Origin: an uncultured Bacteriovoracaceae bacterium
GTDB taxonomy: Bacteria > Bdellovibrionota > Bacteriovoracia > Bacteriovoracales > Bacteriovoracaceae
Direction of reading: 5' to 3'
Assembly: GCA_950054155.1 (NCBI GenBank)
Contig: CATLOT010000006.1
Coordinates: 62,001-126,000, forward strand
Length of the DNA: 64,000 nucleotides
Shown: in pieces, positions 9,349-45,879 of the stretch
Layout: each line of letters begins with the position of its first letter
How positions within the stretch are numbered: position 1 is the stretch's first letter
The notes under the pieces: model-generated
The model's input: only the letters and a program-made list of their open reading frames with translations
Told to the model about the DNA's origin: nothing
Database searches by the model: none
Translations under genes and position numbers: made by a program

Positions 9349-9416
9349 AGAGGACTCCTTGAGAAAGTAAAAAAATTTTCTAGAAGTATTCCACAAAGAT
9401 TCTAAAAAGAGCAAAT

Positions 9417-9435
9417 ACCAAACTCAACCTGGCAC
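9417..9435 (-). repeat. 19-bp RAYT-associated repeat, copy A
   Basis: Exact copy of GTGCCAGGTTGAGTTTGGT read on the minus strand. It starts downstream of the PP2C stop codon and is in the same orientation as that gene. It is the only copy of the five preceded by a 13-bp tandem duplication. See the RAYT at 27173-27784. Confidence 0.85.
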
Positions 9436-9456
9436 CTTTAGGAGGCACCTTTAGGA
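9431..9456 (-). repeat. 13-bp tandem duplication over the PP2C stop codon
   Basis: TCCTAAAGGTGCC occurs twice head to tail on the minus strand (plus-strand GGCACCTTTAGGA at 9431-9443 and 9444-9456). The first unit contains the PP2C TAA; the second runs into repeat copy A. It looks like slippage or a duplication made when copy A arrived. Confidence 0.85.
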
Positions 9457-10233
9457 GCGAATCTTTCTTAAGAAAATAAAGGAAATGTCATCGTCTTTAC
9501 GCCACTGATCCTGATGTTCAGTGAAAAATGAGCAAAGCTCTTTAAAACCCTCTTCAAAAGAACCTTTTCCAACTTTTTCACTAAGTTCTTCATGGGTGAC
9601 ATTATCAAAGAGACCATCAGAGCCCACAAGAACAGAGTAACCTTTCTTCAGTTGGACCCTTGAGGCGACTTCAATACGTAAAAGTTCATCACCAAGAAGA
9701 TTATTAACGAGGTTACGATCATTGTGGTCAAGTGCCTCTTCTTGGGACATGTAACCGGCTTCGACGGCGTAGCCTACGGGCGATTGCGGGATATTATTGT
9801 AGATGGTTTCACCTGTACTATTAAAGTACTGAATCTCACTATCTCCGACAGAGTAGGAGCGTAACTCCGTCTCAAAGAGGGCACCAAAAGCAAGTGTGGT
9901 AAAAGCACTTGGGTACTTTTCACGAACTTTGAAATTCGCCTCTTCAATTAGACTAATGAGTTGAACATCTTGGGCCTTCTTAGTGCGAACATATTGAAAG
10001 ATGGTTTCACCTACCGAATAACTCGCTTCCCTTCCATGAGGATGACCTCCAGCTCCATCGGCCACACCAAAGAGACAGAAGTCTTCTTTTCCAATAAAGA
10101 AGAGGGTGTCTTGATTCGTTTCCCCCTTACTTTGATTCTTCTGAATGAAGTAACCTATTCTGTAGTCATTCCAATCAAAAATATCCTGTTCTTTTTCTTC
10201 AATATTGTGGAGGAAGATCTCTTTGCTATCCAT
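9451..10233 (-). CDS. PP2C-family protein serine/threonine phosphatase
   Basis: A soluble metal-dependent phosphatase of about 260 residues. The metal-binding motifs are visible: GVADGAGGHPHGREAS (the family DGMGGH motif), VGDSEIQYF, VLVGSDGLFDNV and KDDDISFIFL near the end. It overlaps the 3' end of the kinase-like gene by 8 bp (ATGGATAG), so the two are likely translationally coupled, and it probably reverses phosphorylation by that kinase. The start is uncertain: the ATG at 10233 has a G-run almost touching it, while a TTG at 10257 would add eight residues but has no Shine-Dalgarno. It is the last gene of the ugd operon; a 19-bp repeat follows the stop. Confidence 0.88.
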   Translation of the reverse strand: MDSKEIFLHNIEEKEQDIFDWNDYRIGYFIQKNQSKGETNQDTLFFIGKEDFCLFGVADGAGGHPHGREASYSVGETIFQYVRTKKAQDVQLISLIEEANFKVREKYPSAFTTLAFGALFETELRSYSVGDSEIQYFNSTGETIYNNIPQSPVGYAVEAGYMSQEEALDHNDRNLVNNLLGDELLRIEVASRVQLKKGYSVLVGSDGLFDNVTHEELSEKVGKGSFEEGFKELCSFFTEHQDQWRKDDDISFIFLRKIRS

Positions 10234-25170: not shown

Positions 25171-26682
25171 ATGAAAATTACTTTAAATCTTGGTGCCAAC
25201 GCCCCAAGTATCGCAGACGTTATCGTACTTGGAACTTTCTCTAAAAAAGAGAAGAAAGGGAAAAAGGAAGTTACGACTCCTTCTTTTTCAAATTGGGCTA
25301 AAGACTGTAAGGATGCCTTCCTTGCTCTTGGTGCTGCAAAGTCATTTACTGGCGACGCTGGAACTCAAATCACTTTTGATTGGGAAGGACAAAGAGTTCT
25401 TGCTATCGGTCTCGGTGACAAATCAGCTTATGATAATGAAGCGGCGAGAAGAGCGGCTTCTTCAGTAGCAACTGCCCTCAAAGCAACTGCTGAAACTGTG
25501 GCCATCAACCTTGATACTGTTGCTGTAAAAGGCAATGTTGAAGTGACGGCTGGTCTTTTCACTGAAGGTCTTGCTCTAACGATCTACGAATTCGACAAGT
25601 ACCTCTCTGCTAAGAAAACACCAAAAACAAAAACAATTACTTTTGATTCAAAAGCAAAGAAGACAGGTCAAAAGAAAGTTCAAAAAGCAATTGATGAAGC
25701 ACTCATTACTTGTGAGTCCATCAATGTCGCTCGTGACTTTGTTAATGAACCACCAAATGTTCTTAACTCTGAAACATATGCTAAGGCCGTTGTTAATGAC
25801 ATCAAAGGAACAAAAGGTGTTAAAGCTAAGGTTCTCGGAAAAGCAGAACTTAAGAAACAAAAAATGGGCATGTTCCTTTCCGTTAATGCGGGTTCAGCTT
25901 TCGCTCCTCAACTTGTTCACCTAACGTACACGCCTTCAAAAGTGACAAAGAATACTAAGCACATTGCTCTCGTTGGTAAGGGTCTTACTTTCGATACTGG
26001 TGGTTACTCTCTTAAGCCTGGCGCGGCCATGGTTAACATGAAGTTTGATATGGCGGGATCAGCAACAGTTTACGGTGCCTTCCGCGCTATCGCTAAACTT
26101 GGTCTTCCTGTAAAAGTTTCTTGCTTCCTCGGAATGACAGACAACGCGATTAACTCTCTAGCGACAATGCCTGATTCAATCGTAACAGCGAAGAATGGTA
26201 AAACAGTTGAGATCCTTAACACTGACGCTGAAGGGCGCCTGGTTCTTGGTGACGTTCTTACTTACGCTTCTGAGCAAAAACCTGATTGCATCATCGATGC
26301 AGCGACTCTAACAGGTGCTTGTCTTGTTGCACTTGGTACAGAAGTTTGTGGCCTTATGGGTAACGACAAGAAACTTTCTGACTCCATCAAGAAAGCAGCA
26401 GCTTCTACAGATGAGTACATCTGGGAACTTCCCATCATGAAAGAGTGGCGTGACGATATGAAATCAAATATCGCTGACCTTAAAAATATCGGTTCAAACA
26501 GATTTGCAGGAACGCCAAAAGCAGCAGCATTTCTCGAGAACTTCGTAGGCGAAGGCATCGCTTGGGCCCACCTCGACATCGCAGGTTGTGGTGACTCACA
26601 AGCCCACCTCCCCTACTGCCCCAACAAAGGCGCCTCTGGCCTCATGGTCAGAACCCTCGTCAACCTCGCCAAAAACCAATAG
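25171..26682 (+). CDS. pepA: Leucyl aminopeptidase, M17 family
   Basis: A hexameric two-metal aminopeptidase releasing N-terminal residues in the cytoplasm. The C-terminal catalytic domain shows VGKGLTFDTGGYSLKP, MKFDMAGSATVYGA and the signature NTDAEGRLVLGD. The N-terminal macro-like domain is divergent, with a Lys-rich insert (FSKKEKKGKKEVTT). ATG at 25171, giving MKITLNLGANAPS, is chosen because GGAG lies just upstream; the frame upstream to 25123 has no support. 503 residues is typical. Codon usage is unusually regular (high-expression look). The 19-bp repeat copy B begins right after its TAG stop. Confidence 0.95.
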   Translation: MKITLNLGANAPSIADVIVLGTFSKKEKKGKKEVTTPSFSNWAKDCKDAFLALGAAKSFTGDAGTQITFDWEGQRVLAIGLGDKSAYDNEAARRAASSVATALKATAETVAINLDTVAVKGNVEVTAGLFTEGLALTIYEFDKYLSAKKTPKTKTITFDSKAKKTGQKKVQKAIDEALITCESINVARDFVNEPPNVLNSETYAKAVVNDIKGTKGVKAKVLGKAELKKQKMGMFLSVNAGSAFAPQLVHLTYTPSKVTKNTKHIALVGKGLTFDTGGYSLKPGAAMVNMKFDMAGSATVYGAFRAIAKLGLPVKVSCFLGMTDNAINSLATMPDSIVTAKNGKTVEILNTDAEGRLVLGDVLTYASEQKPDCIIDAATLTGACLVALGTEVCGLMGNDKKLSDSIKKAAASTDEYIWELPIMKEWRDDMKSNIADLKNIGSNRFAGTPKAAAFLENFVGEGIAWAHLDIAGCGDSQAHLPYCPNKGASGLMVRTLVNLAKNQ

Positions 26683-26701
26683 GTGCCAGGTTGAGTTTGG
26701 T
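26683..26701 (+). repeat. 19-bp RAYT-associated repeat, copy B
   Basis: Exact GTGCCAGGTTGAGTTTGGT beginning at the base after the pepA stop codon, sense to pepA. It fills most of the 30-bp gap to the trmL start, which lacks a recognisable Shine-Dalgarno, and is followed by a partial echo, AGTGCCAA. Confidence 0.9.
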
Positions 26702-26712
26702 AGTGCCAACTT

Positions 26713-27162
26713 ATGATTAATATCGTTTTAGTGGAGCCGGAAATTCCTGGGAATACCGGCTCCCTTGGACGAACCGCCCTCGCTCTTGGCGCTCGTCTTC
26801 ACCTCATCCACCCCTTAGGCTTTGATCTCAGTGAAAAATCTGTCCGCCGTGCGGGCCTCGATTACTGGAAACATGTCGACCTCATTGAGCACCAGTCCTA
26901 CGAAGACTTTCTTAAGAAAGAAAACCCAAAGCACCTCTACTTCTTCACGGCCCACGCAAAGAAATCCCTCTTCGATGCTCAATTCAATGAAAACTCTTAT
27001 CTTGTGTTTGGAAAAGAGAGCGAAGGGCTCCCTCAAGAACTTTGCCCGGAAGAGGCTAGTTATAAACTGCCGATCCTAAGCCCTCACATTCGAAGCCTTA
27101 ACCTTGCTAGCTGTGCTACTGCTGCTGCTTATGAGTGCTATCGCCAAAATGTGCCAGGTTGA
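26713..27162 (+). CDS. trmL: tRNA (cytidine/uridine-34-2'-O)-methyltransferase TrmL
   Basis: Methylates the ribose of the wobble base of tRNA-Leu isoacceptors using SAM. A small SPOUT protein: VLVEPEIPGNTGSLGRTALALG at the start, PLGFDLSEKSVRRAGLDYW, LVFGKESEGLP, and the trefoil-knot end LPILSPHIRSLNLASCATAAAYE. 149 residues against about 155 usual. The last codons (GTG CCA GGT TGA) are bases of repeat copy C, so the repeat provides the final three residues VPG and the stop codon. Copy B occupies its upstream gap and no Shine-Dalgarno is seen, so translation may depend on pepA. Confidence 0.94.
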   Translation: MINIVLVEPEIPGNTGSLGRTALALGARLHLIHPLGFDLSEKSVRRAGLDYWKHVDLIEHQSYEDFLKKENPKHLYFFTAHAKKSLFDAQFNENSYLVFGKESEGLPQELCPEEASYKLPILSPHIRSLNLASCATAAAYECYRQNVPG

Positions 27163-27169
27163 GTTTGGT
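27151..27169 (+). repeat. 19-bp RAYT-associated repeat, copy C (left flank of RAYT)
   Basis: Exact GTGCCAGGTTGAGTTTGGT. It overlaps the 3' end of trmL and supplies its TGA stop. With copy D it forms an inverted pair bracketing the RAYT gene. Confidence 0.92.
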
Positions 27170-27172
27170 AGT

Positions 27173-27784
27173 TTAAAATAAAGTCGGAAGCTTTTCTTTT
27201 TCTCGCGTAACCCTATTAACGGGGGCATCAAAGAACTTCCTTCGCATGCCTTTGCGAATAAGCCCCCTCTCATTTTCCCCTTTCTTTTCATTAAAGAACT
27301 TCAATTGTTCTTCCCTTTCATAGTCCAGAAGATCATGAAGCTTAAACGGAAAACGATTCAAAGAGCTATAGGGAAAGTCCTCCACTTTAGCGACAATTCC
27401 TGCATCCACAGGATTGCGATAAATATAACGATAAACAGTTGAGAGATAATAGTGGTCCTTCACGAGAGACCACTTGTAACGACCACCAAAGATCTGATTT
27501 ATTCGCCCCGAATTTTGGCGAACAAGCTCGCTAAACTTTCGATTAAATTCGAACATAAACTTATCAATATTCGCATCTGGCGTTGTAACGAGAAGATGAT
27601 AGTGATTACTCATTAAAACAAACGCATTAATCTCTACGGGATACTTCTCCATCGCAAAAGCAAAAGAATTCAATGCGATCTTCCACATAGTTTTCATCGG
27701 CAGATCATACCAATCCCGATTACGAGAACGACAGACAATGTGGTAAGGGAAATCAGCGGTTCTAATAAGAAGTTTTCTAGGCAT
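27173..27784 (-). CDS. REP-associated tyrosine transposase (RAYT), Y1/IS200-like
   Basis: A single-strand-DNA HUH transposase of 203 residues. The start MPRKLLIRTADFPYHIVCRSRNRDWYD is typical of RAYTs. The HUH motif is in VLMSNHYHLLVTTP near residues 56-69, and the catalytic Tyr is in YLSTVYRYIYRNPVDAGIV near 120. RAYTs are usually single-copy domesticated enzymes that spread short palindromic repeats rather than themselves. Here both ends carry the 19-bp repeat in inverted orientation, so these are the likely substrates. ATG at 27784. Reading toward trmL, its stop lies 4 bp from copy C. Confidence 0.9.
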   Translation of the reverse strand: MPRKLLIRTADFPYHIVCRSRNRDWYDLPMKTMWKIALNSFAFAMEKYPVEINAFVLMSNHYHLLVTTPDANIDKFMFEFNRKFSELVRQNSGRINQIFGGRYKWSLVKDHYYLSTVYRYIYRNPVDAGIVAKVEDFPYSSLNRFPFKLHDLLDYEREEQLKFFNEKKGENERGLIRKGMRRKFFDAPVNRVTREKEKLPTLF

Positions 27785-27839
27785 AAACGCCTTAAAACAA
27801 AACTATCTCAAAAGAACCACTCCTATTTCAAAAAAGAAA

Positions 27840-27858
27840 ACCAAACTCAACCTGGCAC
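27840..27858 (-). repeat. 19-bp RAYT-associated repeat, copy D (right flank of RAYT)
   Basis: Exact copy on the minus strand, 18 bp downstream of the stop of the giant lipoprotein gene and sense to it. Inverted partner of copy C. Confidence 0.9.
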
Positions 27859-27876
27859 TTTATGGAAAGCGACAGC

Positions 27877-30800
27877 TTAGAGGTAATCAAATCCATTAAC
27901 AAGGGTACTTGTCTGTCCATCAGGGTTTGTTAAAACAACATCGTATGTACCGACACTATTTGATCCCGTCATACACGAAACTTCAGTACTACTGACAAAA
28001 GTAATTGAGGAGCAAGGAACACCGCCGATATCGATACTAGAAGGTGGACTTTGAAAGTCGGAGCCATAGATGGTTATAGTTGTACCACCCACTGCGGGTC
28101 CACTCGTTGTAGAAAGACTTGCAATGCTAGGAGGTGGATTATATGTGTATGCCCCTGGTAGTACTCCGGTTTCTCCGTATTCATTATTAATAATGATATC
28201 GTATGTACCCGCAACCCCTATGCCAGTTGTACAATTAAGAGAAGTGTCAGAAATCTCTACTAAGCTAGAACACTCATAAGGACCAATGAAGACTGAGGAT
28301 ATCCCAACGAGATTATTTCCATCAATAACCAATGATGTCCCTCCAGTTTCAGGACCATTTGTAATATCGACCGTCGTTGGATTAGGAGAGAGCGCATTAC
28401 CTGTTGAAGATGGGGCACCTCCTTGAACGAGCTCAATATATTCTAGGATTTCAGGATACTCGAGATACTGTTCCGTTCTCACCAGCCATGTGGAATAGGA
28501 GTTCCCGGTCTCTTCTTCCCAAACATTTCCCATATCCCAGTCACCAACGTCCCAGCCTAAAGTAGAGGCGTAAAAGTCAGGAAAGTTTGTATCATCAAAA
28601 GTCATCGTAGTATCGGGAATATAGAGATTAAAAGAAGTGGCAGCTGGGGCGTAGGGCACAGTCGTCGTAGGTATATCATTTCCTGGCACAGTACCGGAAG
28701 GCATGAAAGAGTACTGGCCGAGTCCAAGTCTATAATTTGAATCGAGTCCGTAGGAGGAGAGGTCTGTCGGGGTATCGGTTGCAACCAAAGTTGAGCCGTC
28801 CCATTGCGCCGTATCTACAATCTCATTGAGAAAATTGCCGGTCATTGTTCTGTGAATAAAGAAATTATTATCCACCCCAGCATTGGCTAGAAAATCATTT
28901 GCTCCATTAAAATTCAATTCTCCCTCAAATACTGAATTCCTTACGGGACTAGCCGACTCAGAGTAGCCGACAAAGTAACCAAAATTGTCTCCAAAGTACT
29001 CTAAGATCGAGTATTCAGAATTTTGATGAACAAAGGCATTTTCAATAGAGCCCGATGATGAATTATAACCCGCAATAAAGCCTACATTGATAAAGGGGGA
29101 TATAATCGTCGTTGTAGGGATACCAGGTTGATATCCACTTCCACTAGGGTCTGAAGTTGGTATTCTTATAGGATTGGCCGTACCTGCGCGATAAATCAAA
29201 TCTCCAGCAACCCAATCTTGATCGATGGACCCACTAATCGGTTGCGTCGAAGCCCCCGTTCCTATTGTGAATATGGTATTTGCCCCAATAGTGTCTGGCA
29301 CAGAGGCATCAAAGAGAGTACTATCGTAGCCAGGATCGCCATCTAAATTGAGATCAAGCTTTCCATAGAGAGAAACATTCTTAATAACCCCCTCATTCCT
29401 ACCGGCTACAAGACCAGCATTGTAAAAGACAGCTCTATCTGTGGCTAAAGGCCCATACTTAGTCGTGAGTTCACCAGAAAAAGATGTCTGACGAATATCT
29501 CCGTTATAACTAAAGACCTCATTATTCACATTATCTGTGAAACTCTTCACACCATTATAGGGAGTATTTTCTCCAACAATACCACCGATAAGTCTTCCCA
29601 AGCGATTGGCATCAGCCGGACTAACACTTCCTTTCGCCTGACTATAGAGGATGAGGCCGCCTCTATTCCACCCAGCAAGGCCACCAACTCTAAGGTGCCC
29701 TTTTACTTTTACATAGGATTCAATACCTGCCATAACACCGTTATTTTTTCCAACAACACCTCCAATAACAGGATTAGGTGAGTTATTAACAATATTAGTA
29801 CCATCAACAAGCCCAAAGGCTTTCACTCTTTCGACTAGACCTTTATTTTTACCAGCCACTAAACCTACAGTTCTTGCATTAGCAACAGTGCTGGAAAATT
29901 GGCCAATTACTGCAAAATCTTTTAAGACACCATTAACACCGATAACAGAAAATAACCCTGCAGGTGCTGCTTGTACATTTAGTTGAATGAGTCCTACATT
30001 ATTAATAAAGTGACCATTTCCATCGAAAACACCTTGAAACTCTTTACCCGCATTAGCTGAATTAGGAAGAAAGATACCATTCGTCTGTGAAGCTCCAACC
30101 ATGTCGATAGGTCGAGCCAACTTATAATGAAAATTTTGATCAAAATTTGTGCTCATATTAATAAACTGTTGAGCGCTACAAATAAGGTAGGGATCATCTG
30201 ATGTGCCACTTCCACCAGCAAAAGATCCAGTAAACTTACCGCTGCAAAAGCGAGGAGCTTCCCAGTCTAGAATAGGTATATCATAACCACTGTCATCAAT
30301 TCTCCATCCATTAGCAGAAGTGAACCCTTGACCGACCATGTAATTACCAACATTTCTAAAATTATCGTACTCTGCAGATGTTGGAACAAGAGCTGCAGCA
30401 CTGGTAGCACCACCACCACCGGCACCAATAGCCTCAAATCCAAAATCAGAGTTAACGCGAGTGGGATCACTTTTCGGATTAGCAACAGTCCCAATAGTGT
30501 GAAAGACACGATCTACGGCTATCCCCGTACCTCCACCAACAACTCCCACAACACCACCAGTGTTACCTTCTCTCGTAGAATCTGCAGTCCCAGCAAGTAC
30601 CTTAGTGCCAAGAACTGTCATCACAGAATAACTATTATTAAGTGTACCGGCATCGGCGAATCCAATAAGACCACCATTATCAGTACCACCGACAAGAAGT
30701 CCCTTACTGGTAGACTGAGAAATATTACTCAGAACCGACTTTCCTACGAGACCTCCAAAACCTTCAAAGGAGAGATTGGTGGTACACCCTCCCCAGTATT

Positions 30801-32457
30801 CAGTTGGATCTTGACAAAAACCCTCATCATTTTCATTTGAGTCAATCTCAACACGACCTTCAAATTCTGTAAATGTTATGTCAGAACTAGAAGCATATCC
30901 CGTGATACCACCAACAAAACGGCTTCCTTCGACTTCAGAATCAATAGAATCTAAAAAGTTTAGGGTTGCACTCGATTCAATACGACCAGCAAAGAGGCCC
31001 ACTTCCTCACGGCCTTCAACCATACCATGAATAATACTAATATCCTCTAAAGTTCCACCTGACACCGTTCCTGCAGCAATTCCAAGACGTTTATGGTCCT
31101 CCTCCTCATCTGCCATAATCTCAGGAAGAATAAAAGTGAGGTTCTTTACCGTACCAGATAGGCGACGAACAAATCCAATATCAGAGACCGCGACAGCATT
31201 ACCTTCAATGTCAATTCTCATTCCCGTGATGATCATTCCATTTCCATCAAAAGTACCGGAATAAGCTACGCTACTAGCTTCATTGCCAGTAAAGGCATCT
31301 CCGATCATCGGAAAATTAGAAACACTCGGTGGGCTTGAAGGAGAAATATTTTGACCCGCAAAATAGTTAATATCGCTAAAGAGATGAAAATTCTTATTAT
31401 AAAATTGTCGTCCCGTTGTAAATTCAGCTGGTATTAAAGCAAACTGTTCTTTATTACATATTCCATACTCAGTTAAGGTTCCAGCTAATACGACTGAAAA
31501 ATCTGTGGTTAATCCCCCACGAGGTGGTGCACAAGCAAGACTCTCAGGAGTAAAAATAGCGACTTCCCTATTTGTCTCATCAAGGCGAATATTTCCCGAC
31601 CCTGCTTTAAGTCCGTTAGGAACGATGAAGTTGGTAAGTCCCCTACCAGAGTCGTCACAATTATCTTTATAAAAAGCTTGAATATTAAAAGGGATGCCTT
31701 TTCCAGCTGCTGGTCCCCAAGGAAAATGAATATCTGGAGAGAGAGCATCAATGGGATCAACAACCGATAGTAAGGTGTCTGAACCGCCACTCCCCTTAAG
31801 GCAAACACTTCCAAGAGAGTTCCCATTTTCAAACTGAACTCCCTCACCAGGAAATTGCTTAAAAGGAGTGATCAGGACTCTTGCTGAATGAATGAGCCCT
31901 CGTGCCTCATCCGTCATACAGTCACTAGAGCTTGTCACTTCACTCAAAGGCTTTCTACAGTGAAAGAAATTTGTCTGGACAAATTTATTAATACTTCGCC
32001 CGTAACCATCATCCTCCATCGGTGTTCCCCATATAGGGTCAGCACAATTCCCATTATTCGCAGTGAGCGCAACAGTAAGGTCTGAACCATCAAGAAGATT
32101 ACTAGGACTAGAACCACAACGAACAATCCCTGTAAAAGCAGGAGTTCCATCAGCGAAGGAGCCATCAGCATCGTGATCCCCATCCCACATGATCACATGA
32201 AAATCCCAAGTTCCGTTGGGAAGCTCAAGAGAGAGGGTGTCGCTATTGTCATTATCAATTCGTTTGAGAAAACTCCCCGTTCCATCAACTTGAGTTCCGA
32301 TGAGGAAAGCGCCCCCTGCGGAATATTGATTGAGTGCCGTAAGGCCCGCGATTTTCACATCAAAATCCGTAAGGGATTCAGACTTACCCGCACACCCTAA
32401 TAAGGTGAGAAAGAGACAACAATGAATAAGGAGTTCTTTGAATTTTAGTTTTTCCAT
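27877..32457 (-). CDS. Giant surface lipoprotein with GLUG-like repeats and two IPT/TIG domains
   Basis: A predicted lipoprotein of 1526 residues (MEKLKFKELLIHCCLFLTLLGCAGKS, lipobox LLGC). After about 330 residues without recognised fold, residues 390-1150 carry repeated beta-helix-like units. At least eight match the GLUG pattern (FGGLVGKSVLSNISQ, GGLIGFADAGTLNNSY, VGLVAGKNKGLVERV, IGGVVGKNNGVMAGI, VGGLAGWNRGGLILYS, IGGIVGENTPYNGVK, AGLVAGRNEGVIKNV). The C-terminus has two tandem IPT/TIG immunoglobulin-like domains (TNGPETGGTSLVIDGNNL and TSGPAVGGTTITIYGSDF). Such proteins are usually surface adhesins; function here is inference. Base composition is more AT-rich than neighbours by eye. ATG at 32457. 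Confidence 0.85.
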   Translation of the reverse strand: MEKLKFKELLIHCCLFLTLLGCAGKSESLTDFDVKIAGLTALNQYSAGGAFLIGTQVDGTGSFLKRIDNDNSDTLSLELPNGTWDFHVIMWDGDHDADGSFADGTPAFTGIVRCGSSPSNLLDGSDLTVALTANNGNCADPIWGTPMEDDGYGRSINKFVQTNFFHCRKPLSEVTSSSDCMTDEARGLIHSARVLITPFKQFPGEGVQFENGNSLGSVCLKGSGGSDTLLSVVDPIDALSPDIHFPWGPAAGKGIPFNIQAFYKDNCDDSGRGLTNFIVPNGLKAGSGNIRLDETNREVAIFTPESLACAPPRGGLTTDFSVVLAGTLTEYGICNKEQFALIPAEFTTGRQFYNKNFHLFSDINYFAGQNISPSSPPSVSNFPMIGDAFTGNEASSVAYSGTFDGNGMIITGMRIDIEGNAVAVSDIGFVRRLSGTVKNLTFILPEIMADEEEDHKRLGIAAGTVSGGTLEDISIIHGMVEGREEVGLFAGRIESSATLNFLDSIDSEVEGSRFVGGITGYASSSDITFTEFEGRVEIDSNENDEGFCQDPTEYWGGCTTNLSFEGFGGLVGKSVLSNISQSTSKGLLVGGTDNGGLIGFADAGTLNNSYSVMTVLGTKVLAGTADSTREGNTGGVVGVVGGGTGIAVDRVFHTIGTVANPKSDPTRVNSDFGFEAIGAGGGGATSAAALVPTSAEYDNFRNVGNYMVGQGFTSANGWRIDDSGYDIPILDWEAPRFCSGKFTGSFAGGSGTSDDPYLICSAQQFINMSTNFDQNFHYKLARPIDMVGASQTNGIFLPNSANAGKEFQGVFDGNGHFINNVGLIQLNVQAAPAGLFSVIGVNGVLKDFAVIGQFSSTVANARTVGLVAGKNKGLVERVKAFGLVDGTNIVNNSPNPVIGGVVGKNNGVMAGIESYVKVKGHLRVGGLAGWNRGGLILYSQAKGSVSPADANRLGRLIGGIVGENTPYNGVKSFTDNVNNEVFSYNGDIRQTSFSGELTTKYGPLATDRAVFYNAGLVAGRNEGVIKNVSLYGKLDLNLDGDPGYDSTLFDASVPDTIGANTIFTIGTGASTQPISGSIDQDWVAGDLIYRAGTANPIRIPTSDPSGSGYQPGIPTTTIISPFINVGFIAGYNSSSGSIENAFVHQNSEYSILEYFGDNFGYFVGYSESASPVRNSVFEGELNFNGANDFLANAGVDNNFFIHRTMTGNFLNEIVDTAQWDGSTLVATDTPTDLSSYGLDSNYRLGLGQYSFMPSGTVPGNDIPTTTVPYAPAATSFNLYIPDTTMTFDDTNFPDFYASTLGWDVGDWDMGNVWEEETGNSYSTWLVRTEQYLEYPEILEYIELVQGGAPSSTGNALSPNPTTVDITNGPETGGTSLVIDGNNLVGISSVFIGPYECSSLVEISDTSLNCTTGIGVAGTYDIIINNEYGETGVLPGAYTYNPPPSIASLSTTSGPAVGGTTITIYGSDFQSPPSSIDIGGVPCSSITFVSSTEVSCMTGSNSVGTYDVVLTNPDGQTSTLVNGFDYL

Positions 32458-45438: not shown

Positions 45439-45879
45439 ATGAAGTCGCTCCATCTCATAGTTGTTGGAAAGAACAAAGATAAGAACTATCTTGCCCTGGA
45501 AGCGGAATACCTTAAACGAATCCGTACCTTTAAACTTCATATTCACGAAGTAAAGTCCCACCAAGAAGACCTTGATCTTGAAGCTCGTGAGGTTCTTAAA
45601 AAGCTTTCCTCTCTCGATTCTCCACCCTACTACCTTCTTACTGAGCGAGGCAAGGCCTATGACTCCCTCTCTTTTTCCAAAAAGTGCCAGGTTGAGTTTG
45701 GTGATTTTGCCCTTATCATCGGTGGTGCTTCTGGACATGGAGAGGAGCTCTACAAAGGCTGTAAGGGAGAGATTAGTCTATCGCCTCTCACTCTTCCCCA
45801 TAAAATGGCCCGTCTTGTTCTGATTGAACAAATCTATCGTGCCGAAACAATAATTTTGGGACACCCTTACAATAAGTAA
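45439..45879 (+). CDS. rlmH: 23S rRNA (pseudouridine1915-N3)-methyltransferase RlmH, with embedded repeat
   Basis: Methylates pseudouridine 1915 in helix 69 of 23S rRNA. A SPOUT protein: KSLHLIVVGKNKDKNYLALEAEYLKRI at the start, YYLLTERGKAYDSLSFSKK, then FALIIGGASGHGEELY and the knot end SLSPLTLPHKMARLVLIEQIYRAETI...HPYNK. 146 residues against about 155 usual. Residues 83-88 (CQVEFG) are encoded by an exact copy of the 19-bp repeat, just before the conserved strand that leads to IIGG. The frame is kept and all motifs survive. Starts 3 bp after rsfS; overlaps the convergent E2-like gene by 13 bp. Confidence 0.95.
   Translation: MKSLHLIVVGKNKDKNYLALEAEYLKRIRTFKLHIHEVKSHQEDLDLEAREVLKKLSSLDSPPYYLLTERGKAYDSLSFSKKCQVEFGDFALIIGGASGHGEELYKGCKGEISLSPLTLPHKMARLVLIEQIYRAETIILGHPYNK
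45684..45702 (+). repeat. 19-bp RAYT-associated repeat, copy E, inside rlmH
   Basis: Exact GTGCCAGGTTGAGTTTGGT lying in frame in the rlmH coding sequence and sense to it. Similarity to copy C continues for a few bases (GATTT against AGTTT). Confidence 0.9.

Follow-up and report, generated by a model that had tools for sequence, protein, structure and literature searches.

IS200/IS605 elements are bounded by distinct left-end and right-end hairpins. In canonical REPs a hairpin is combined with a foot of the GTAG type (PMC8266576, PMC3733652); the characterised RAYTs require such a hairpin, and evolutionary evidence of RAYT mobility has been reported as lacking (PMC8266576). A different arrangement, the TIRYT/TIRtron, was described in 2013 by Di Nocera et al. 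(PMC3733652). It comprises a RAYT-like gene flanked by terminal inverted repeats (TIRs) that are also found dispersed. The TIRs are unrelated to GTAG REPs, form moderately abundant dispersed families in some genomes, occur also as dimers and, in many published examples but not all, share the motif GGGGWSAS (PMC3733652). Among the 26 examples those authors gave, 20 belong to TnpAY1 subclass 2.1 (Quentin et al. 2018, PMC6006769), which corresponds to RAYT group 1 of Bertels and is characterized by NH[YF]H, YIELNP or Y[IV]HLNP, and a C-terminal HTH-like domain (PMC6006769). The substrate of this subclass, the closest group to the enzyme described below, has been obscure so far, since REP-like repeats were not found for it by Quentin et al. 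2018 (PMC6006769).

The present analysis concerns a RAYT and a short repeat in a 64-kb window (the whole stretch of DNA analyzed) of a Bdellovibrionota genome. The repeated 19-mer probably forms the core of 27-bp repeats that terminate the RAYT unit, and its dispersed copies would then be short non-autonomous elements relying on the RAYT now or in the past.

Distribution, extent and folding of the repeat

A pattern count in the window found the 19-mer GTGCCAGGTTGAGTTTGGT in five exact copies, at 9417 (-), 26683 (+), 27151 (+), 27840 (-) and 45684 (+), exactly where the original prediction had placed them, and no copies with 1-3 mismatches. The expectation by chance (mean over shuffles) was ~0.01 matches, and a chance origin of the repeat was therefore rejected. 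The copies at 27151 and 27840 do bracket the Y1 transposase gene as inverted repeats, and the other three are solo, as had been claimed, although the one at 26683 lies just 468 bp from the near repeat of the RAYT unit (Table 1).

Table 1. Features of the window discussed in the text
Feature	Position	Strand	Remarks
Whole RAYT unit	27144..27865	-	722 bp; gene and two inverted terminal repeats
RAYT	27173..27784	-	203-aa Y1/HuH transposase; NHYH at 60-63, putative catalytic Tyr120 in YIYRNP
Terminal repeat, 3' side of RAYT	27144..27170	+	TGA at 27160-27162 is the trmL stop codon
Terminal repeat, 5' side of RAYT	27839..27865	-	~55 bp ahead of the RAYT ATG
trmL, SpoU-family tRNA methyltransferase	26713..27162	+	RAYT unit set in its 3' end
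Solo copy between pepA and trmL	26676..26702	+	Head CCAATAG holds the pepA stop codon (26680-26682)
Solo copy	9416..9442	-	Second tandem head CTCCTAAAGGTGC at 9445-9457
Solo copy in rlmH	45677..45703	+	In frame; KKCQVEF in place of ten congener residues
rlmH with in-frame copy	45439..45879	+	Orthologues in 6/6 congeners

The genome of the window (G000; 3.52 Mb, 61 contigs) was then covered by pattern search. It holds 20 copies matching the core GTGCCAGGTYGASTTTGG, namely 13 exact 19-mers, five with another final base, and two of the form GTGCCAGGTCGACTTTGGC; the exact 18-mer core occurs 18 times, so the family is present outside the window and not confined to it. The reversed-pattern control gave 0 matches in this genome. 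Core identity aside, none of the G000 copies is visibly recent.

An alignment of 45 copies from five congeners showed that the repeat unit measures ~27 bp and can be written as CCAAAAR-GTGCCAGGTTGAGTTTGG-TA. A 7-bp head, CCAAAAR (C-5 in 43/45 copies, C-6 in 38/45), precedes an almost invariant core of 18 bp, which is followed by a T/C-A tail. The edges of conservation are sharp at -7 and +21, and the element was delimited there because the positions beyond look random. The copies were gathered by a core pattern that leaves out head and tail, so that the constancy of the initial core positions is in part a product of the search. The 19-bp repeat of the original prediction is thus real as a core, but its length was underestimated, the head having been overlooked.

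Neither the 19-mer (z 0.17) nor the 27-mer (z=0.14) has more structure than its shuffled versions, which bears out the earlier remark that the hairpin is weak, also for the extended copies. Only rare variants and doublets fold: a variant ending in TTTGGCAC (z=-2.6) and an inverted doublet of the congener G003 (z=-10.4). Since single copies do not fold and the conserved positions include the would-be loop, the data favor recognition by sequence (head and core) rather than by hairpin shape, although a weak hairpin stabilized by the bound protein may be compatible with the same data. The 45 aligned copies begin with CCAAAAR-GTGCC in place of a GTAG foot, and the GGGGWSAS motif is absent from the window repeat class in this alignment. 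A canonical GTAG-hairpin REP was ruled out, there being no GTAG foot and no fold in single copies.

Pairing of repeats and RAYTs within the genus

The exact 18-mer is as abundant in G003 (20 copies), whose RAYT is 70% identical to that of the window, as in G000 (18 copies). In the congeners lacking an orthologous RAYT it is rare or missing (G002, 1; G004, 0; G005, 2; G006, 0), and it is found in 0/53 genomes outside the genus. The repeat is consequently not equally common in relatives without the RAYT, with the exception of G001, in which an orthologous RAYT (67% identity) is present, yet only two exact 18-mers and 2-3 copies in all. G002 and G005, which have no window-type RAYT, keep a few copies, several of them decayed; one copy occupies the identical gene end in both, suggesting old age or gene transfer. 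The repeat family is thus almost private to lineages with a window-type RAYT.

G006 and G005 carry other RAYTs (46-47% identity), flanked by different repeats. The class flanking the G006 RAYT, CCAAAAGTGCATGGCACC, has 12 copies in G006, and that flanking the G005 RAYT, CCAAAAGTATCCACGTACC, seven in G005; neither was found in other congeners, though a few such repeats occur in other genera. Comparison with the repeats of related RAYTs, in these two genomes and across the phylum (see below), therefore showed that each enzyme pairs with its own, different repeat. As the RAYTs of relatives each have a private repeat, the window pair is a lineage-specific variant of a known gene-repeat partnership.

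A composite of ~80 bp, in which a window-class repeat is joined to an inverted AAAAAGTACCACGTACCTTTTTT, occurs in three copies (L024 in G002; L030 and L047 in G003). It resembles a miniature element with two unlike ends, AAAAAGTACCACGTACCTTTTTT being another repeat class.

RAYT-flanking repeats across Bdellovibrionota

A contig scan yielded 80 RAYT loci, 79 of them usable for flank comparison. Nearly all loci with a named group come from Bdellovibrionota lineages (Bacteriovoracaceae, Bdellovibrio and others), and a few are labelled just Proteobacteria or Deltaproteobacteria, which is the old placement. The best inverted match between the two flanks exceeded the 95% level of mismatched-pair controls at 63/79 loci, and the control maximum at 55/79. 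The matched flanks share the plan AAAAGGT[AG]CC ... CTTTT, often with GCG further in. Taking genus and phylum together, the plan of the cognate repeats is a CAAAAG or AAAAGG head, then GTGCC or GTACC, often with CTTTT at the close.

A generalized pattern, AAAAGGTRCCN{0,12}CCTTTT, was searched in 192 Bdellovibrionota genomes. It was found 444 times in 116 RAYT-positive genomes, compared to 14 times in 76 RAYT-negative ones (perfect palindromes being counted on both strands in these totals). Two or more copies were present in 27 RAYT-positive genomes versus one RAYT-negative genome (Fisher 5e-6; as the genomes are related, P values overstate independence). The pattern has 0 matches in G000, since the window class keeps the first half (head and GTGCC) and has diverged in the second.

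Palindromes with a double foot, for example AAAAGGTACCAGGTACCTTTT or AAAAGGTGCCAGGCACCTTTT, were seen in five RAYT-positive genomes of other Bdellovibrionota families (G077, G089, G121, G138, G153), with 40-74 strand-counted matches per genome.

The RAYT protein

The RAYT matches Pfam Y1_Tnp (PF01797, E=5.7e-10) and is the only protein of G000 to do so. It scores 68.7 bits with the NCBIfam model REP_Tyr_transpos, under the cut-off of 80, and far under the cut-off of the IS200 model. Among PDB entries it matches TnpAREP 4er8 by sequence (E=1.2e-6). An AlphaFold2 model built from 35 sequences (pLDDT 93.5) gave a predicted fold whose best match is likewise 4er8 (E=4.4e-10), followed by IS608 and ISDra2. 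Residues H61, H63, Y120, N124 and P125 are invariant in 35 homologues. In the 4er8 alignment Y120 falls on the first tyrosine of YIY-NP, which we take to be catalytic, as in the 4er8 family.

The hallmarks of RAYT/TnpAREP proteins are therefore present: HuH, a single putative catalytic tyrosine, Y-x3-NP and a TnpAREP-like predicted fold. Low copy number and vertical inheritance (one gene in G000, a common trmL site, 67-70% identity) also fit a RAYT. With regard to the subclass 2.1 traits, NHYH is present, the tyrosine motif YIYRNP differs, and no HTH was detected by Pfam.

The RAYT unit at trmL and its empty site

The gene into whose end the unit is set was identified as trmL by Pfam PF00588 (E=2.5e-28); TIGR00185 gave 154 bits, under its curated cut-off. 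The same site holds a RAYT in G000, in G003 and, at a contig break, in G001, the genes having diverged to 67-70% identity. The G003 gene, like the window gene, is located downstream of trmL; it is enclosed by perfect 26-bp inverted repeats.

G002 lacks a 731-bp unit (RAYT and both repeats) at the site orthologous to that of G003. The junction reads GGCAAAT-TAATCAATAAAGAG in G002 and CGCCAAAT-[731 bp]-TAATCGATGAAGAGG in G003. Orthology of the two sites is secure, because the far-side flanks are 90% identical over 1.2 kb. Against the intact empty site of G002, the ends of the G003 unit are clean, and the comparison revealed no target duplication of at least 2 bp. A small tree of three proteins places G002 as the sister of G003, and G000 in a group with G001 and G005; the distribution of the unit therefore implies either a single gain and later exact losses, or more than one gain at this site. 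An unoccupied allele brought in by recombination, rather than transposition, could have produced an identical difference between G002 and G003.

When similar RAYT loci were compared for other moved units, one suggestive inversion was found (L170/L179), near contig ends. At L170, L179 and L182, all near contig ends, RAYT units whose TIRs resemble each other (GGTGTCAGTCTCC...) appear in opposite orientation or on a different side of one and the same neighbor gene.

The window unit is adjoined by a gene at 27877-32457 (-) for a 1526-aa protein with C-terminal TIG/IPT domains. A gene related to it stands beside trmL in G005.

Solo copies and gene ends

The solo copy at 26683 is shared with G001 and missing from the pepA-trmL junction in G002-G006. 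The in-frame copy in rlmH is absent from the gene in 6/6 congeners (tblastn): RlmH reads FSKKCQVEF-GDFALIIGG in the window and FSEFLDKTFSHQ-GDFALIIGG in G001, the remaining protein being conserved.

The head is tandemly repeated upstream of some copies, in the window (9445-9457) and at L026, L029, L052 (G001) and L124 (G003). Examples are CTCCTAAAGGTGC twice, CCAAAAGGTGC twice and AGCAAAA arrays, which look as if insertion or slippage had occurred repeatedly at the head.

In G000, 13/20 copies overlap the stop codon of a co-oriented gene or come within 20 bp of it, as do 6/18 in G003, compared to two copies in each genome at the stop codon of an opposite-strand gene only. This bias, and a core that is nearly invariant even in its would-be loop, would be expected of a host regulatory or RNA signal acting on the sense strand after stop codons, which the RAYT carries or between two copies of which it inserted. 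Such a signal is nevertheless an unlikely explanation: the repeat is restricted to the genus and absent from 2/6 congeners, the other RAYTs of the genus use other repeats in the same role, one copy sits inside rlmH, and inverted placement at RAYT ends recurs throughout the phylum.

Discussion

The window locus resembles the TIRYT/TIRtron in having a Y1 gene between TIRs unrelated to GTAG REPs (a perfect 26-bp TIR in G003), TIRs dispersed in 18-20 copies, doublets in G003 and the HuH motif NH[YF]H. It departs from many TIRtrons in that its class lacks GGGGWSAS, seen only in the distant phylum member L073, and from TIRtron/subclass 2.1 proteins in its tyrosine motif (YIYRNP; YI/VY[QR]NP in the family), which is neither YIELNP nor Y[IV]HLNP. 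The repeat plan AAAAGG/CAAAAG plus GTRCC also differs from that of published TIRtrons.

With the REPtron or TnpAREP-REP systems of E. coli, S. maltophilia and Marinomonas (PMC8266576, PMC3733652) it shares a single-copy Y1 transposase with cognate dispersed repeats, inverted doublets, an extragenic bias and the 4er8 fold, predicted here. It differs from them in lacking a GTAG/GTGG tag and a stable hairpin in single copies, in having ~20 copies rather than hundreds, and in the sense-strand stop-codon bias. Like REPINs (Bertels and Rainey 2011, PMC3116915), two doublets in G003 consist of inverted repeats 51 bp apart with a related spacer; unlike REPINs, doublets are rare here, G000 having only one, which is imperfect (L014).

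Because a single copy folds like shuffled DNA, the pair is of the TIR type ('TIRtron') and not a GTAG-hairpin REP. Its closest category is a Bdellovibrionota variant of the TIRtron kind, the main TIRtron features being present. The original claim of a RAYT-linked repeat other than the usual strong palindrome was accordingly upheld by the lack of a hairpin and by copy numbers that follow the RAYT. The epithet 'undescribed' holds for the repeat itself and for Bdellovibrionota in the literature searched, but not for the category, known since 2013 (PMC3733652). The openly accessible literature that was searched yielded no report of such repeats in Bdellovibrionota. Papers retrieved with the repeat words had no link to RAYTs in their titles and abstracts, and RepRanger 2025 contains no mention of the words or of RAYTs.

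A second alternative is an ordinary IS200/IS605-like insertion sequence that left solo ends behind, rather than a domesticated RAYT. The window unit shares with IS608 and ISDra2 the predicted fold, the clean insertion without target duplication and the intact empty site; it differs in its single copy per genome, the RAYT-type tyrosine motif and the perfect terminal inverted repeats of G003. Such an insertion sequence is very unlikely, given that TnpAREP is the best match by both sequence and fold, that the motif is Y-x3-NP and not Y-x3-Q, that the IS200 model is so poorly matched, and that the diverged RAYTs of G000, G001 and G003 stand at a common trmL site. That a short word recurred by chance or was duplicated during assembly, as the local clustering of five copies in 64 kb might suggest, can be dismissed almost entirely in view of the shuffling expectation, the empty reversed-pattern control and the distinct flanks of the copies (20 in G000, 18 in another species).

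Under the favored reading of the 19-mer as part of a RAYT-unit terminal repeat, the HuH/Tyr enzyme would bind single-stranded repeat DNA through the head and core sequence, cut at the foot of the repeat and rejoin the ends in the manner of IS200/IS605 enzymes. Single repeats, doublets and, rarely, the whole unit might thereby be moved or copied. Copies would persist mainly just past stop codons, the least harmful location, and could themselves provide the stop codon. For this pair we infer that single strands are cut and rejoined, that the solo copies depend on the enzyme and that the whole unit is mobile. A broader proposal is more tentative, and on balance doubtful: that a Bdellovibrionota-wide RAYT clade reads a linear head-tagged repeat (CAAAAG plus GTRCC) without a hairpin in each repeat, and that whole units still excise or insert precisely.

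These findings extend RAYT-repeat partnerships to Bdellovibrionota, a phylum of predatory bacteria for which none had been described in the literature searched. With many independent enzyme-repeat pairs built on one plan, three of them within one genus, the phylum is suited to tests of the co-evolution of Y1 transposases and their repeats. The clean empty site makes RAYT mobility testable, and precise excision or insertion of the unit, if true, would be evolutionary evidence of it.
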